This document shows, piece by piece, positions 4,326 through 20,532 of a stretch of 21,464 nucleotides of DNA (positions within the stretch are counted from its first letter, which is position 1; every line of letters starts with the position of its first letter). The stretch is from a virus. A program made the position numbers and the translations under genes. Below the pieces are notes generated by a model. The model made no database searches. It saw nothing but the letters and a program-made list of their open reading frames with translations, and was not told the origin of the DNA. The DNA lies in the IMG/VR virus record IMGVR_UViG_3300038825_000279, positions 1 through 21,464 of that record. One strand, 5' to 3'.

Positions 4326-4678
4326 CGGTTATCTCCTGATCCCTTAATCACACCACGCTTGGCACGATCATTCAACTTATCCATGTTAGTCTCCATTACC
4401 TCTGGCAGGTTACTGTAGAAGTAATTAGCCAAGGCTGTCGTGTAAAACAGAACGTCACCTAGCTCTTTGACGATCTCTTTCTGGTTAACCTTAGTATCGT
4501 CACGGAGGTACTTCTTTACCTTCTCGGCTACCTCCCCTGCTTCCCCTACGAGACCCAAAGCATTTTCCACTAGGCGGGTCTCACCTTTTGTCGTGATCTT
4601 ACCTTCAACCCAATAGGAATACTCCATCGGTGTAACATTAACAATGCTGAAAGCATCAATGTCTTCTTGCGTAATCAT
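4322..4678 (-). CDS. mazG: MazG-like nucleotide pyrophosphohydrolase
   Basis: 118 residues. The metal-binding pattern of the MazG/all-alpha NTP pyrophosphatase family is present: GEAGEVAEKVKK (about 45-56) and then KEIVKELGDVLFY (about 67-79), i.e. E-x2-E followed by E-x2-D. It would cleave NTPs or dNTPs to monophosphates plus pyrophosphate; in marine phages it is often carried with RNR and ThyX. In some phages it has been proposed to act on ppGpp, but nothing here tells which substrate is used. It overlaps the methyltransferase gene before it and the DUF1127 gene after it by four bases each. Confidence 0.88.
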   Translation of the reverse strand: MITQEDIDAFSIVNVTPMEYSYWVEGKITTKGETRLVENALGLVGEAGEVAEKVKKYLRDDTKVNQKEIVKELGDVLFYTTALANYFYSNLPEVMETNMDKLNDRAKRGVIKGSGDNR

Positions 4679-5241
4679 ACTGTTCTCCCATAGAACTCTG
4701 TCTGTTTAGCAGGATCTCTGGCCATGTCAAATAGATACCAAGCGCAGTTGTCTTTACCTACGCTTTTACTACCTTCAATCCATTTGACCCTACCTATGCT
4801 CACTACCTTAACGCAATACGACATCAAGATAGCTGACTGTTTCGTGTGCATCCAATCGGCATCAAAGAGTAGCCATGTTGGACACATCTGCATCCACCCT
4901 TCGATGAATGGGTGCAGTAGTTTTCTGTCCCAAGGTGGGTTGGTGATACACAAGTCTGCACCACCGAAAGCCATAAATAAGTTCAAGAAGTCTTGCTCAC
5001 CCATGTTAATAGAATCATGGACGCAAACTCTTGGGTCTCTCGGCTCAATATCACAAGCAAAGATACACTCGCCATGACCATCTGTCAGATCATCTATGTG
5101 GTCTATCAGACGCCCATCTCCCGCACAAGGCTCGTAGTAGTCAAACGAGTAAGGCAAGTGCGGGATCAGAGGTTCAACGGCTGACCTTGGTGTCGGGTAG
5201 TAGTCCCTCGGTACTCTTTCAAAGTCACTACGCTTGCCCAT
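4675..5241 (-). CDS. SAM-dependent DNA methyltransferase, N6-adenine type
   Basis: 188 residues. The SAM-binding motif EPCAGDGRL (37-45) and catalytic motif NPPW (101-104) identify a class I amino-methyltransferase of the N6-adenine group; the N-terminal YYPTPRSAVEPL is also typical of phage and plasmid members. There is no room for a large target-recognition domain, so sequence specificity is unclear. It could protect phage DNA from host restriction. It starts 14 bases inside the end of the metallophosphoesterase gene and overlaps mazG by four bases. A role on RNA or another substrate cannot be excluded. Confidence 0.82.
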   Translation of the reverse strand: MGKRSDFERVPRDYYPTPRSAVEPLIPHLPYSFDYYEPCAGDGRLIDHIDDLTDGHGECIFACDIEPRDPRVCVHDSINMGEQDFLNLFMAFGGADLCITNPPWDRKLLHPFIEGWMQMCPTWLLFDADWMHTKQSAILMSYCVKVVSIGRVKWIEGSKSVGKDNCAWYLFDMARDPAKQTEFYGRTV

Positions 5242-14860: not shown

Positions 14861-15779
14861 AGTGTTCTTCTCGCACAAAACTTAGTGCATACTCAAGGTC
14901 TTTGAGGTCGTAGCCGTGGGACTGTAGCAGTATTGCAACACTTTTGGGACGCTCTGCAATAAGCTGCTCCATGTCGGGGTCGAAGTCTACATCGTCGTCA
15001 TCCACACAGTAGACACTATCGTCCCTGTCAAACATATCCCACTCTGGGGACACCTTGTTGGGGTCACGGGCTATAACTAGCTTGGACCAATCTGCGTTGA
15101 TGCAACTGTCAGCTACAATCTCCATGAAGTCTAGGTCTTGAGACTCTGTGCGTTGATGCTGCTTGAAGTAACCAACAGATATATTGGTACACTCTGGTAT
15201 GATGCCACGATACTCGTTGCTGTCTGTGTATGAGCCGTATGGGTCATGCTTGTAGTCACAGTCGAGTATGTCAGCAAGGCTGTCAGCGAAGGTGTCTGAG
15301 CATGTACGAACGCCTGACTGATGGGTTATGATAGAGTTGTAACCGTAGCGGTCAAAGCTGATAGCTGCGCTGATACCCTGCACGACCTCTGGTGTATGCT
15401 GCACGATGTAGCTAGAGCCACGGCACCCAACTTCTTCTGCTGTGTGTACAATGTACAAACCCTCGACACCTGCCTCGATCATACGCAGCATGATATAAAC
15501 ACCTGTAGTACAATCGGCGCCTAAGCAATTCTCGGTGGTGGTTGTAGCAAAGCCACCGGAGTCAATGACAACATTCTGTCTACCGCCATTCTTGTGTACT
15601 GTGTCATGGTGAGACATGAAGGCAACTGTGGGGTTGCCAACACGAAGAATGTAGTTGCCACGGTCATCTGGTTCGCCAAAGACGGGGCGCAGGAAACGGT
15701 TGCAGAATTTGCGCTGGGCCTTGGTTCCCTCTGGGCGCATATAAGATAGCATGTCGATGTAGTCTTTTGTTGATAGCAT
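14850..15779 (-). CDS. zinc metallopeptidase of the M20/M28/M42 type
   Basis: 309 residues. Co-catalytic dinuclear zinc ligands can be followed: SHHDTVH (H57, D59), CLGADCTTG (D89), HTAEEVG (E115, E116), SFDRYG (D143) and a late His in GYFKQHQRT. This order, H-x-D, D, EE, D, H, is that of the M20/M28/M42 aminopeptidase and deacylase clan. The C-terminal 70 residues are very acidic (CVDDDDVDFDPD). Substrate is unknown; it may trim peptides or hydrolyse an amide on a small molecule. It is the first gene of the early block, behind AAGGAA and a sigma-70-like promoter, so it is expected to be expressed early. Confidence 0.8.
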   Translation of the reverse strand: MLSTKDYIDMLSYMRPEGTKAQRKFCNRFLRPVFGEPDDRGNYILRVGNPTVAFMSHHDTVHKNGGRQNVVIDSGGFATTTTENCLGADCTTGVYIMLRMIEAGVEGLYIVHTAEEVGCRGSSYIVQHTPEVVQGISAAISFDRYGYNSIITHQSGVRTCSDTFADSLADILDCDYKHDPYGSYTDSNEYRGIIPECTNISVGYFKQHQRTESQDLDFMEIVADSCINADWSKLVIARDPNKVSPEWDMFDRDDSVYCVDDDDVDFDPDMEQLIAERPKSVAILLQSHGYDLKDLEYALSFVREEHYPY

Positions 15780-15808: not shown

Positions 15809-15837
15809 GTAATATCAAATTCCCACGGAGGGGTCAA
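15809..15837 (-). promoter_or_regulatory. sigma-70-like promoter for the early block
   Basis: On the minus strand TTGACC (15837-15832), 17 bases, TATTAC (15814-15809), about 30 bases before the metallopeptidase ATG. The -35 box and spacer coincide with the gene-proximal copy of the 18-base motif, so a protein bound there would compete with RNA polymerase. Confidence 0.65.
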
Positions 15838-15953
15838 GGTTTATTTCCACTGTAGGGGGGTCATACATAATTCCCTCGGTGGGGTCTTAATTTCCACTGT
15901 AGGGGGTCGCGGTCATTTTCCACTGGTGGGGTCATTTTCCATCGGTGGGGGGT
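15819..15953. repeat. cluster of six imperfect 17-20-base repeats
   Basis: Plus-strand copies start at 15819, 15843, 15870, 15890, 15915 and 15934, with 19-27 bases from start to start. Consensus on the + strand is about WTTYCCACTGTAGGGGGTC; copies 2 and 4 are nearly identical, and copies 3, 5 and 6 have CGGTGGGG or TGGTGGGG in the second half. All six have the same orientation. The irregular spacing and short unit argue against CRISPR and for a protein-binding array. Confidence 0.88.
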
Positions 15954-15967
15954 ACATGAGCATATTC

Positions 15968-16053
15968 TTATATTCGAATATTTATATATGTTTATATTCT
16001 TATATGTAAATATGTTTATATTCGAATATTTATATATGTTTATATTCTTATAT
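15968..16053. repeat. two perfect 38-base AT-rich direct repeats
   Basis: Bases 15968-16005 and 16016-16053 are identical and lie 48 bases apart start to start. Each contains the perfect 12-base palindrome ATATTCGAATAT (15970-15981 and 16018-16029). The whole 15961-16075 stretch is almost pure A and T and would melt easily. Confidence 0.92.
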
Positions 16054-16092
16054 AAGCGTTCGTTTATATTTTGGGCTGGTGAAACCGGATTC

Positions 16093-16143
16093 GCCACGCC
16101 TGAGCCATTGCCACGCATGAGACATTGCCACGCCTGAGCCTGA
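16093..16143. repeat. three tandem 17-base iterons
   Basis: Units at 16093-16109, 16110-16126 and 16127-16143, each beginning GCCACGC(C/A)TGAG, with exact 17-base period and few differences. They lie 40 bases from the AT-rich repeats. Tandem iterons of this size are typical binding sites of replication initiators or partition proteins. Confidence 0.85.
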
Positions 16144-16218
16144 GTCTGTTTTGACCTATGGGTGAGTCTTAGGTTTAATTGATTGCCGGGCTTGTCCCTT
16201 CTATTGAGTCTAGGCGGC

Positions 16219-16244
16219 AAAAAACCCGCGCTATAAACGCGGGT
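16219..16244 (-). terminator. rho-independent terminator for the two-gene unit
   Basis: On the minus strand ACCCGCG, a seven-base loop, CGCGGGT, then a run of T (A run at 16219-16224 on the + strand). It lies 23 bases after the stop of the small secreted protein and insulates that unit from the repeat region. Confidence 0.88.
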
Positions 16245-16267
16245 AAATTGCTTTCAGTTGGTTTTAG

Positions 16268-16435
16268 TTAGTTATAGAATCCGGCCTCAGTAGGTGCAGC
16301 GAATTCGATATGATACCCGCCCAAACCCGCGATGAAAAAACCCGCGCCACTTGAGTCAGCATAGGTGAAAGATGAAAGCGCCGCGAGTATTGCAAGCGCG
16401 TAAAATGTCAGCGTGATTTTAGCCATGGTTTTCAT
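16268..16435 (-). CDS. small secreted protein with signal peptide
   Basis: 55 residues from ATG 16435, chosen because GAGGAG lies seven bases upstream; a longer reading overlaps the upstream gene. The first 26 residues are a clear signal peptide: basic MKTMAK, hydrophobic LTFYALAILAALSSF, and a TYA-D cleavage site. The predicted mature part is about 29 residues, glycine and aromatic rich (DSSGAGFFIAGLGGYHIEF). There is no lipobox Cys. It is followed by a terminator and preceded by the 484-residue gene with one base between them. It could be a periplasmic superinfection-exclusion or lysis-control peptide; this is speculation. No family is recognised. Confidence 0.68.
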   Translation of the reverse strand: MKTMAKITLTFYALAILAALSSFTYADSSGAGFFIAGLGGYHIEFAAPTEAGFYN

Positions 16436-16436
16436 A

Positions 16437-17891
16437 TTAAGACTCCTCAGTTTCAAATAGGTCTAATTGGCGATTTATGATTGTAACATTGCTATATTCG
16501 TCTTCTGAATATTCGAGCCATGGTTTCAACGTGAAAACTGACTCGTTGCGCTGATAGGTTTCGCCGTTGCGCTGATATTCGACTATTTTGGTGGTTATAA
16601 CGTAAAATTCAATGGCTTGCTCATATGTGCAGTCAATAGCCACAGGCGCTTTCAAGTCATTGGACCGAATATTGCCCTCGAGACACTCAAAGAAATCACC
16701 CGAGTCAATGTGAAACCACTCTTCAGACTCGTCGCAAAATACGGCGTCATCGATATGGCAGACTCCATCGCTTGTGTGGACGTAGTCGCCATGGTCAAAG
16801 CAATACTCACACACACAAGAGTCATTAGTAAGGGTAACCGAGGTTTCAACGGGTTCCATGTCGCCGCAATCATTGCAGCAAAAGTGCGAGTCGTGATAGC
16901 AAGACTCGCAATATGTTGCCTCCATACGTTCGCTATAATACGCCTCATCCTCATGGCACCCACACCCGCATTGCTCACAATGGTATTCAAAACCACCGAC
17001 GACTCCTTCAGTTGAGTCTAAGCAATATTCTGAATTCATGGCCCGGCAAATTCTAAAGTATTCGCCACAATCTTTTATAGATTGATGTTGGTCTAAGTAT
17101 GGACCGAGCCAAGAGTCACCGCCTAAACCCGCATCAACTTTCAACAGTTTGCAATTGATCCAAGACTCTTTTGCGGGTTCATCACACGCCGCGTTTTTTT
17201 CTTTTATATACTTTTGCAGTATATCGGATGCAGCATTTGAATTTGTGTAAATAGGCGCGGCCGCATAGCGTCCCTTGCGAGTTGCTACAACTACCCGCGC
17301 AAGTAATTCACCCGCGCTATTCTCCACCCATGCAATTTCGAAATCGCCTGAGCCGTATATTGACGCCGGGTGAGCTGACAAGTTGTCGAATGAATATCTC
17401 ATGCAGCTTGCAGATAGACTCTTAAATTCATGCCCTAAGCGCGGATCGGATTTAGGCGCTTGCTTCTGAGTATATACCCGCGCGAAATCTTTAGGCGTAT
17501 TGCCTGATTTAACCACCATCCCTTGCAATGGAGTTACGAATTTGTCTTTGAATACCTCAGCGAATTTAGCGCACTCAGAGTCACTTGCTATAGGCGCGAG
17601 TTTTCTAAGTAATTTACCCGGCTTGCCTATGGTACGCCGTCCACGTTCCAAGTCATCCGCGCAGGTATATATAGCCATGAGTCGTCCATCTTTAGAGTCT
17701 ACTATCGGGCTTGCCCATATAGCCAAACTGAAAGAGTCTTGAATAGGCGTGATAGCTTTTAGAGCCATTGCTAATTCGTTAAATAATCCCTCATGATAGT
17801 CAGTATCATTACAGGCAATGCTATTTTTAAACGACTCTAATAGTTTACTCTCGTGATTTATCGACTCTACATATTTAGAAGCAAGGTCCAT
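16437..17891 (-). CDS. 484-residue Cys-rich protein, likely multi-zinc, function unknown
   Basis: Start ATG 17891 behind GAGGAA. The N-terminal 160 residues are mixed helical with no motif. A central part carries LSASCMRYSF, SAHPASIYGSGDFEIAWVE, and GELLARVVV, then GPYLDQH, a set of blocks that resembles uncharacterised phage proteins from memory. From about residue 300 to 400 there are repeated CxxC knuckles (CEQCGCGC, CESC, CCNDC, CEYC, FCDESEEW) separated by 10-20 residues, like a run of treble-clef or RING/LIM-type zinc sites. The end is acidic. Codon and word use differ from neighbours (GAGTC/GACTC and CGCG rich). It may be a nucleic-acid or protein-binding regulator; not recognised. Confidence 0.8.
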   Translation of the reverse strand: MDLASKYVESINHESKLLESFKNSIACNDTDYHEGLFNELAMALKAITPIQDSFSLAIWASPIVDSKDGRLMAIYTCADDLERGRRTIGKPGKLLRKLAPIASDSECAKFAEVFKDKFVTPLQGMVVKSGNTPKDFARVYTQKQAPKSDPRLGHEFKSLSASCMRYSFDNLSAHPASIYGSGDFEIAWVENSAGELLARVVVATRKGRYAAAPIYTNSNAASDILQKYIKEKNAACDEPAKESWINCKLLKVDAGLGGDSWLGPYLDQHQSIKDCGEYFRICRAMNSEYCLDSTEGVVGGFEYHCEQCGCGCHEDEAYYSERMEATYCESCYHDSHFCCNDCGDMEPVETSVTLTNDSCVCEYCFDHGDYVHTSDGVCHIDDAVFCDESEEWFHIDSGDFFECLEGNIRSNDLKAPVAIDCTYEQAIEFYVITTKIVEYQRNGETYQRNESVFTLKPWLEYSEDEYSNVTIINRQLDLFETEES

Positions 17892-17956
17892 GGTTGATTC
17901 CTCTGTTAAATTACGGATTAGTCCACCGCCAAATTGACATATGCGACGACTCAGGT

Positions 17957-17978
17957 CAATAGCATCTGAGAGCTATTG
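17957..17978. repeat. perfect inverted repeat upstream of the Cys-rich gene
   Basis: CAATAGC (17957-17963) and GCTATTG (17972-17978) with an eight-base gap, 66 bases upstream of the Cys-rich gene's start. It could be an operator for that gene or a hairpin in its leader RNA. Confidence 0.5.
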
Positions 17979-18295
17979 TAAGCCATTTACATTGCATTAA
18001 TAGTTTTCCAGCCCGTATATGCTAGAATCTTTTTATATGTCTTAAACGGCTGTATATTGGCACTCAGGCTTATTTGTGTTTTGCAATGGGTTCAATTTGT
18101 TATGGCGCGAACGGGTGAAACTATTGCGAGTTTATGGTGATATTTGATTGCGTGGACCGGGTGCAGTGGGTGAGGCGAATCGCTTATCCGCGCGCTTAAA
18201 TTTGTTGGTTTCGCTCAGATAAACGCCAAAGAGTCAAGAGTTTATCACGTTTGTTGCATAAATGTCACTCGCATGAATTATTTTCCTCGGGTGGG

Positions 18296-18324
18296 TTTAC
18301 ATTCGATGGGACCCTTGATATTAT
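18296..18324 (+). promoter_or_regulatory. sigma-70-like promoter towards terminase genes
   Basis: TTTACA (18296-18301), 17 bases, TATTAT (18319-18324) on the + strand. RNA starting about 18331 would begin with the GGTGGG/CCCACC hairpin and carry a leader of about 415 bases before terS. Confidence 0.55.
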
Positions 18325-18384
18325 ACGCCAAACGATTCGGTGGGGGTGTTAGCCCACCCTATATCCAAAACAAAAAAAACATTA

Positions 18385-18746: not shown

Positions 18747-19184
18747 ATGGCTTCTAATAAAAAACTTCCATACAGTAATGTTATCGCCAAAGTTGTTAAA
18801 CTTGGTGTCAGTCAAGGTGTGGCTGTAGCTGACATCTTGGCTGGTATCCAGAAATACCAAGATGCACCCTCCAGTCTAACTACCTTCTATAAGTTGTATG
18901 GTGGCGATATAGCAGAGGTCAAGCTCAACACTATCGGAGAAGTAGGTCAGGTAGTAGTCCAAAAGGCACTTGATGGAGACCTTAAGGCTGCTGAACTGTT
19001 TCTTCGTAGTAAAGGTGGTTGGTCTCCTACGCACACGGTAAACGAAGTTGAACGTGAGATTGACCCCGACCTAGACGAAAGTGCAGCCTCTACACTTATG
19101 TCGCTACTAGGATATAACAACGATGCCCCCGAAGAAGAAACAACCTGTACCTGTGGCGAGGAAGATAACTGCCGATGCTCTTAG
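18747..19184 (+). CDS. terS: terminase small subunit
   Basis: 145 residues. The N-terminal half looks like a DNA-binding HTH domain (SNVIAKVVKLGVSQGVAVAD, then PSSLTTFYKLYGGDIAEVK); the helical middle (GQVVVQKALDGDLKAAELFL, then RSKGGWSPT) is the usual oligomerisation part of TerS. It would recognise the packaging site and load the large subunit. The last 13 residues have four cysteines (CTCGEEDNCRC), an unusual tail that could bind zinc. No strong Shine-Dalgarno precedes ATG 18747. Its last 62 bases overlap the start of terL. First gene of the rightward late transcript. Confidence 0.82.
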   Translation: MASNKKLPYSNVIAKVVKLGVSQGVAVADILAGIQKYQDAPSSLTTFYKLYGGDIAEVKLNTIGEVGQVVVQKALDGDLKAAELFLRSKGGWSPTHTVNEVEREIDPDLDESAASTLMSLLGYNNDAPEEETTCTCGEEDNCRCS

Positions 19185-20532
19185 AGGATTACCTCAGAGT
19201 AAAGTTAAGGACATCTTCGATCAGCTAGGGCCACTCAAGACTGAGGAACTTAAGCATGACTGGATGTTTTGGGCGAGGGATAACCAACTTGAGCCTAATG
19301 ATACCGATTGGAATGTTTGGTTTATTAACGCAGGTCGTGGATTTGGTAAAACTCGTTCTGGTGTAGAGTGGGTACGAGAGAATGTTAAACGTGGTGTTAA
19401 ACGTATAGCTGCTGTAGCTTCTACCAACTCAGATATTGAACGAGTTATGGTCAAAGGTGAATCTGGTTTCCTATCGGTATGCTGGAAGGGTGACAAGACC
19501 CACAAAGGTAAGAAGATGGGGTTCCCTGAGTGGTCTCCAACTAAGCGTACACTTACATGGGAGAATGGAGCGCAAGTACAGTTCTTCTCCGCAGAGGAAC
19601 CTGAGCGTCTCCGTGGCCCACAGTTTGAGTTAGCTTGGTGTGATGAGACTGCTGCTTGGAACAAGGACATGGACACTTGGCAGATGCTACAGTTTTGTAT
19701 GCGTCTGGGTAAACACCCAAGGATCATGGTTACGACCACTCCTAAGCCAACTAAACTTATTCGTCAGATACTCAAAGACCCTAAGACTGTAGTTACCTCT
19801 GGTAGTACCTTTGATAACTCAGCCAACCTAGCTACAACATACCTCACTGCTGTTAAAGAGCAGTACGAAGGAACTAGACTAGGTAGACAAGAGCTTTATG
19901 CTGAAGTCCTAGAAGAAGCTCAAGGAGCCTTGTGGACTACAGCTATGCTAGATGACTGTTCAGTTAAACATGAGGCAGTCCCAGACCTTTCCCGTATTGT
20001 CGTTGCACTTGATCCCGCTGTTACCTCTAATGCTGAGAGTGACATGACGGGTATTATTGTCGCAGGTATTGACATTAACGGTATTGCTTATGTCCTTGGA
20101 GATTATACCGATAGGTTATCACCACAGGGTTGGGCATCTAAAGCCATCCAATTGTATCACCAGTACCAAGCTGACCGTATTGTAGCGGAAGTTAACCAAG
20201 GTGGTGATATGGTCAAACAAACGATCCACGGAGAAGACCCTACAGTACCGTATAAGGCTGTTAGAGCATCCCGTGGTAAGTTCGCTAGGGCTGAACCTGT
20301 GTCAGCACTTTATGAACGTGGTTTGGTAAAGCATGTGGCTAATCCCCCTGATGGGGCTTCGTTGAACGAATTAGAAACACAAATGAGAACATGGGAACCA
20401 CTAGGGTCGATTGGCTCCCCAGATAGACTTGATGCCTGTGTATGGGCAATTACAGACCTCTCACTTAACGGATATGCGAAACCCAAACTGACCCTCGCTT
20501 ACTCAAGTGCTAAGGGACTTTCACAGAAATAA
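19123..20532 (+). CDS. terL: terminase large subunit
   Basis: 469 residues. ATPase: Walker A GRGFGKTR (71-78), Walker B LAWCDE (170-175), motif III TTTPKP (204-209). Nuclease of RNase H type: VVALDPAV (D297), RIVAEVNQGGDMV (E356) and GSPDRLDA (D437). The segment DWMFWARDNQL (46-56) before Walker A and the nuclease pattern match the terminase group common in alphaproteobacterial phages and gene-transfer agents. It cuts and pumps DNA into the prohead. ATG 19123 gives a 62-base overlap with terS; residues 20-50 look like the family's usual N-terminus, supporting this start. Confidence 0.95.
   Translation: MPPKKKQPVPVARKITADALRGLPQSKVKDIFDQLGPLKTEELKHDWMFWARDNQLEPNDTDWNVWFINAGRGFGKTRSGVEWVRENVKRGVKRIAAVASTNSDIERVMVKGESGFLSVCWKGDKTHKGKKMGFPEWSPTKRTLTWENGAQVQFFSAEEPERLRGPQFELAWCDETAAWNKDMDTWQMLQFCMRLGKHPRIMVTTTPKPTKLIRQILKDPKTVVTSGSTFDNSANLATTYLTAVKEQYEGTRLGRQELYAEVLEEAQGALWTTAMLDDCSVKHEAVPDLSRIVVALDPAVTSNAESDMTGIIVAGIDINGIAYVLGDYTDRLSPQGWASKAIQLYHQYQADRIVAEVNQGGDMVKQTIHGEDPTVPYKAVRASRGKFARAEPVSALYERGLVKHVANPPDGASLNELETQMRTWEPLGSIGSPDRLDACVWAITDLSLNGYAKPKLTLAYSSAKGLSQK

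Follow-up and report, generated by a model that had tools for sequence, protein, structure and literature searches.

The DNA analysed here is a 21.5-kb virus contig (the window, 21,464 nucleotides), and it raises the question of why the segment at 16081–18300 is crowded with GAGTC/GACTC and CGCG. The original prediction had offered two answers, recent import from a different genome or sites under selection, for instance to time expression by methylation state. The counts behind it held on exact counting: for an estimated 25 or so GAGTC or GACTC sites inside and about 15 elsewhere, the segment contains 25 and the other 19.2 kb 14 (11.3 versus 0.73 per kb), and CGCG, put at about 15 against two or three, occurs 18 and 3 times (8.1 versus 0.16 per kb), so that the enrichment is significant for both words (Fisher p = 7e-16 and 2e-15, respectively). 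GAATC and GATTC are indeed missing from the 484-codon gene of the segment, and its Glu-Ser and Asp-Ser pairs are nearly all written with a TCN serine codon, as claimed (15 of 16). When all GANTC sites were considered, a scan statistic found 31 within 2.5 kb, whereas none of 2000 random placements exceeded 18; the nearest flanking sites lie at 15559 and 19459, and the spacing of the sites showed no helical or 10–11 bp periodicity. As the segmentation used to draw the island relies on GANTC itself and is circular for enrichment tests, the main tests were rerun on islands defined by location. The island and its parts are as follows (ORFs were called mechanically).

16088–18338, unstranded: GANTC-dense island with 31 sites, identified by counts, two-state segmentation and the scan statistic, with the same locus dense in relatives.

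15830–16080, unstranded: GGGGTCATTTTCCAC-type direct repeats together with AT-rich tandem repeats of 8 bp, found with a repeat finder, which border the island on the early-gene side.

16224–16244, minus strand: terminator-like hairpin from a pattern scan (9 pairs, 6 of them G-C, followed by a T run), placed where the transcription unit of the island ends.

16268–16456, minus strand: putative 62-aa ORF located 3' of the 484-aa gene, taken from the ORF list and the sequence; it probably begins at an internal ATG close to 16435, preceded by GAGGAGTC.

16437–17891, minus strand: gene coding for a Cys-rich 484-aa protein, with 19 GANTC sites and orthologs at the same locus in eight IMG/VR contigs.

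Family searches gave no match for the 484-aa protein and no convincing match for the 62-aa ORF, and Rfam and tRNA scans of the window returned no matches. One distant homolog of the 484-aa protein was found in Bradyrhizobium phage BDU-MI-1 (24.5% over 41%); the predicted structure had a pLDDT of 35 and was unusable. The protein ends in NRQLDLFETEES, of which the orthologs keep QL(D/E)LF, an ending that we take to resemble a sliding-clamp binding motif.

The contig is kin of the RCA roseophage CRP-6, and it has the terminase genes and gene order common to CRP-6-type roseophages. Amino-acid identity to CRP-6 is 65% for terL, 59% for the putative terS, 81% for ThyX (thyX) and 74% for the cell-wall hydrolase, and the early genes match CRP-6 at the DNA level. 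The early block is read leftward (ribonucleotide reductase, PolA, primase/helicase, a sigma-like factor, PhoH and MazG), the terminase block starts at 18.75 kb and is read rightward, and the island sits between them. The layout thus places the array upstream of the predicted terminase genes, between the early and late blocks.

18747–19184, plus strand: putative terminase small subunit gene (terS), an ORF whose homologs adjoin terL in CRP-6 and relatives.

19123–20532, plus strand: terminase large subunit gene (terL), matching Pfam Terminase_6N/6C and PHROG 979.

Since profile searches gave no convincing family match for the putative terS, it is labelled by position alone. In most relatives it is 48–68% identical to that of the window, while terL is mostly 82–98% identical, as if terS and the neighbouring island were swapped or diverging jointly. 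The island of CRP-6 is flanked by similar G-rich repeats and by TTGCANAAATGTCAC repeats (L010, 44.4–44.9 kb). Elsewhere in the window, a small methyltransferase-like protein (4675–5241, minus strand) carries EPCAGDG and NPPW motifs, matches PHROG 799 (E = 2.8e-29), falls outside the PF01555 family and is conserved, with about 600 matches in related viral contigs; a fold search with its model, which is of modest confidence, pointed to Rossmann methyltransferases (KsgA, type I MTase).

To which word does the enrichment refer? In this window the GANTC excess is carried by N = G or C, and a word restricted to GAGTC, which is a type IIS site, would fit; this candidate was rejected, as relatives also use N = A or T. 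In the coding part of their islands N is unrestricted and the flanks are near background, as expected of an enzyme or reader that acts on GANTC, and the unit is therefore GANTC and not GAGTC/GACTC. With islands defined by location, the island-to-control ratio of GANTC was 15.6-fold, the highest of 32 palindromic words and also the highest among gapped 4-base words, and GANTC was more frequent in the island than in the control in 31 of 31 loci. CGCG is a separate matter. It is high inside the islands of many relatives, but it was rejected as part of the conserved feature, being near codon-usage expectation in the 484-codon gene (z 1–2) and entirely absent from a 46-kb relative (G001), its island included. 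Outside the island CGCG is avoided (55 observed versus 272 expected), and CCNGG, CCGG, CGNCG, AATT and AAAAA are also strongly under-used there, so that the contrast in CGCG comes mainly from relaxed avoidance, which varies by lineage.

The locus was compared across 80 contigs retrieved with the terminase as bait, relatives with a common ancestry whose counts are not independent. A check for the island in relatives, proposed with the original prediction, showed the GANTC-dense stretch to be generally present where contigs reach well into the locus: it covers 2–4 kb with 30–50 copies and stops a few hundred bases short of terS, and GANTC is sparse elsewhere. In a few contigs (e.g. L069) the island is weak or is not picked out by the segmentation. 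Two long relatives (46 and 36 kb) have a single island each with no comparable cluster elsewhere, and CRP-6 carries 38 GANTC in 2.5 kb at this locus versus 31 in its other 42.4 kb, with other genes there. The occupants of the locus belong to at least five gene families, namely GP88, a DUF7227-like family (below cut-off), DUF7178, an L5-gp82-like family and the family of the 484-aa protein, which is unassigned. In the eight IMG/VR contigs, orthologs of the 484-aa gene share both locus and GANTC density. In CRP-6 and most of the relatives closest to it, GP88 genes contain 14–17 GANTC versus 6–7 expected, with weaker enrichment where GP88 occupies the locus in more distant members, and no GANTC enrichment was seen for GP88 in 14 phages that lacked a recognisable terminase of the group. 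As GP88 is the best-sampled family, its unenriched state in other phages indicates that the feature belongs to the place and not to the gene. The homolog of the 484-aa protein in BDU-MI-1 carries a single GANTC and shows no surplus of Asp/Glu-Ser pairs. These comparisons show a locus-specific array, evidently maintained by selection whatever genes occupy the locus.

Not all roseophages share it: CRP-2, CRP-4, CRP-5, CRP-7, SIO1 and ICBM2 have no comparable GANTC island, although CRP-7 infects the same host strain as CRP-6. CRP-13 (L131) is borderline (18 GANTC in 2.5 kb versus a null maximum of 17), and its weaker cluster lies at about 37–40 kb in the coat-protein region, a different place from the terminase-side island. 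The nearest chromosomal terL relatives (L136, L137 and L138, 38–45% identity) are found in Rhizobiales, Hyphomicrobiaceae and Hyphomonadaceae assemblies, with no GANTC island beside these distant terL genes; L136 gave the impression of a gene-transfer-agent type cluster. A phage contig of the group (L135, terL 74%) was binned in a Flavobacteriaceae assembly, and as it includes the margin of a GANTC-dense stretch as well as the promoter described below, it is probably a mis-binned phage. In another relative (L007, 4297–4737) an ORF near the island edge contains a tandem repeat encoding ELKPGLKP-type units.

The suggestion that the sites may be selected was strongly supported by synonymous shuffles, codon choice, conservation and dipeptide frequency. 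In dereplicated ORFs, with the island defined by location, 173 GANTC were observed inside the island versus 104 expected from the shuffles (z 11) and 54 outside versus 167 expected (z −12), which rules out codon usage as the cause of the GANTC density. Serine codons following Asp or Glu were TCN rather than AGY in a ratio of 96:16 inside and 31:110 outside, compared with 203:144 and 934:461, respectively, for other serines. Asp/Glu-Ser dipeptides, which permit an in-frame GANTC, numbered 112 versus 45 expected inside and 141 versus 191 expected outside; given this excess inside and deficit outside, the DNA word seems to influence protein sequence. At 77% nucleotide identity, 15–17 of the 19 GANTC sites of the 484-aa gene are common to orthologs, compared with about 43% for other gapped palindromes (p 0.0002–0.01), and codons whose third base is the fixed base of a GANTC were identical in 7/8 to 16/16 cases, versus a fraction of 0.57–0.77 elsewhere. 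Together, these tests show opposite selection on GANTC, which is favoured inside the island and disfavoured in the rest of the genome.

At the noncoding right end of the island stands a predicted promoter that faces the terminase genes.

18296–18324, plus strand: conserved σ70-like predicted promoter directed toward terS and terL, the top scan match, with 36 distinct copies in the group.

18334–18338, plus strand: GATTC within CGATTCG (YGAKTCG), at about +1 of the predicted promoter.

The promoter reads TTTACA-17-TATTAT in the window, or TTGACA-(about 17)-TATTAT, with GGGACCC in the spacer, and the copy in the window was the top match of an independent scan. In CRP-6 the predicted promoter lies at about 42.43–42.48 kb of L010, on the minus strand. 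A search without a GANTC requirement found GANTC 3–9 nt past the −10 element in 36 of 36 distinct copies (chance of about 0.055 per copy), a figure that shows conservation and not independent origins, the copies being related sequences. Judged by eye, 35 of the 36 fit YGAKTCG and hence the extended motif YGAKTCK. A second conserved element, CACATGAATCCAAAACAAGAAATTAC, which also contains GANTC, lies downstream of the promoter in most relatives (L055, L066, L087 and others); the version in the window is ATATCCAAAACA, in which GANTC has been lost. GcrA has been shown to prefer methylated GANTC and to associate with RNA polymerase (PMC3667746). In Caulobacter the extended motif YGAKTCK is linked to GcrA activation, while Brevundimonas GcrA has no extended-motif preference (PMC7987155), and the GANTC of Caulobacter cell-cycle promoters lies upstream of the start at a distance of up to 50 bp, in many cases between −10 and −35 (PMC4287350). 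Here GANTC is likewise associated with a σ70-type promoter, but it lies past the −10 element, at about +1 of the predicted start, and not upstream of it. One GANTC is thus fixed next to the point where transcription from this conserved σ70-type promoter is predicted to start, and the promoter faces the terminase and structural genes. Because the promoter bears GANTC at this point, methylation timing of expression, as originally proposed, is plausible.

We lean towards the reading, somewhat probable in our judgement, that the island is a selected target array for host CcrM and GcrA at the early/late control region of the phage. Host CcrM, the writer, would methylate the GANTC sites of the island and host GcrA would read them; no phage-encoded GcrA or CcrM-family (PF01555) enzyme was found in five phage records, so that the machinery would be that of the host, and both proteins have been reported to be broadly conserved across Alphaproteobacteria (PMC9437464). 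For a promoter a single site is enough, and it does not call for 30–50 across genes; the promoter alone therefore leaves the function of the array unexplained. Dense methylated GANTC might concentrate GcrA and RNA polymerase at the divergent control region or, alternatively, the array might integrate methylation across many sites; late transcription would thereby depend on host CcrM and cell-cycle state, and the purging of GANTC from the rest of the genome would leave no competing targets. Several points count against CcrM/GcrA: the site at about +1, where Caulobacter has it upstream (PMC4287350), the indifference of Brevundimonas GcrA to the extended motif (PMC7987155), the lack of asymmetry of GcrA motifs in other alphaproteobacterial phages (PMC9437464) and CRP-7, which shares its host strain with CRP-6 and has no comparable island. 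A bolder form of this reading, that a host-written, kilobase-scale methylation array is read as a unit via GcrA and RNA polymerase and gates the late programme on cell-cycle state, a DNA-level trait overriding codons and amino acids, is offered tentatively and is doubtful as a whole.

The main rival holds that the array, which adjoins the terminase genes, is a packaging-start region whose use is governed by GANTC methylation, much as phage P1 packaging needs Dam methylation of pac (PMC12707154). The P1 precedent, the position of the array directly upstream of the putative terS and the contrast between terS and terL identities, as if terS and the adjoining DNA change together, all speak for it, but 30–50 sites over 2–4 kb are far beyond the need of a packaging site, GANTC is sparse nearest terS and the conserved GANTC has a promoter context, which makes this explanation unlikely. 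The clusters of GATC in E. coli oriC bring to mind a replication origin or timing region dependent on GANTC methylation, and noncoding repeats and an AT-rich repeat array do border the island, with similar repeats beside that of CRP-6; most of the GANTC sites, however, are in protein-coding DNA outside the repeats, and a lytic phage has little to gain from origin sequestration, so that we regard an origin as decidedly improbable. A sponge or decoy, in which the multiplied sites sequester CcrM or GcrA of the host or an endonuclease directed at GANTC, would be served by an unrestricted N and by 30–50 sites per genome in many copies, which could rival the site number of the host, but titration requires no fixed place by a promoter and gives no reason for purging the rest of the genome, and an endonuclease decoy would break the phage genome; it is very improbable. 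Recent import, with the island stemming from a genome in which GAGTC/GACTC and CGCG abound, its composition not yet adapted to the new genome, is scarcely credible even though the island differs from the rest in many words (CGCG, AAAAA, AATT) and the locus is accessory with changing gene content, because the density tracks the locus across gene families that are unenriched elsewhere (which also rules out import of one foreign gene), persists where nucleotide sequences have diverged by 23%, the sites being better conserved than background, and goes with a codon choice that follows GANTC context and not codon usage alone, whereas an imported composition would be tied to genes or donor and decay with divergence. 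Of the original interpretation, the import half thus fell and the selected-sites half stood.

It is unusual for a 4-base word in a single small genome to be selected with opposite signs, and so strongly that proteins are changed, and the pattern implies a GANTC-reading activity at one phage locus and a cost of GANTC elsewhere. If the reader is CcrM/GcrA, then CRP-6 and its RCA host would be a cultured system for the sensing of the host cell cycle by a lytic phage, and the finding would be relevant to the depletion of GANTC in other marine phages, which is unexplained. The island is also a marker by which the same strategy might be spotted in other phages from sequence alone. No report of a phage GANTC island was found among the open-licence papers searched, and the accessible part of the CRP-6 description (PMC6918029) does not mention GANTC.

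Several known systems share parts of the pattern. The CcrM/GcrA promoters of Alphaproteobacteria have in common with it a σ70-type promoter with GANTC, the form YGAKTCG and the CcrM word itself (PMC3667746, PMC7987155, PMC4287350); unlike them, the present promoter is phage-borne, has its site at about +1 and is accompanied by a 2–4 kb array in coding DNA. In phages with CtrA-controlled promoters ('lytic deferment'), CtrA sites are clustered, so that sites of a host cell-cycle regulator are likewise confined to part of an alphaproteobacterial phage genome, but the regulator differs, and GcrA motifs showed no positional asymmetry in those phages (PMC9437464). Pelagiphages, in the accessible part of the report, show genome-wide GANTC depletion, a similar avoidance in phages of marine Alphaproteobacteria, with no enriched island described there (PMC9516812), whereas avoidance and enrichment occur here within one genome. 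In P1, too, host-methylation sites are clustered beside phage terminase genes (PMC12707154), as they are in the island upstream of the putative terS and terL. Short words selected across coding sequence are also familiar from HIP1, DNA uptake sequences and Chi, all of which are spread over genomes, and P1 pac spans about 160 bp with 7 GATC. In contrast to the short pac, the array described here, known from its sequence, has 30–50 GANTC over 2–4 kb, and, unlike HIP1, uptake sequences and Chi, GANTC is kept to one locus, with selection against it in the rest of the genome.
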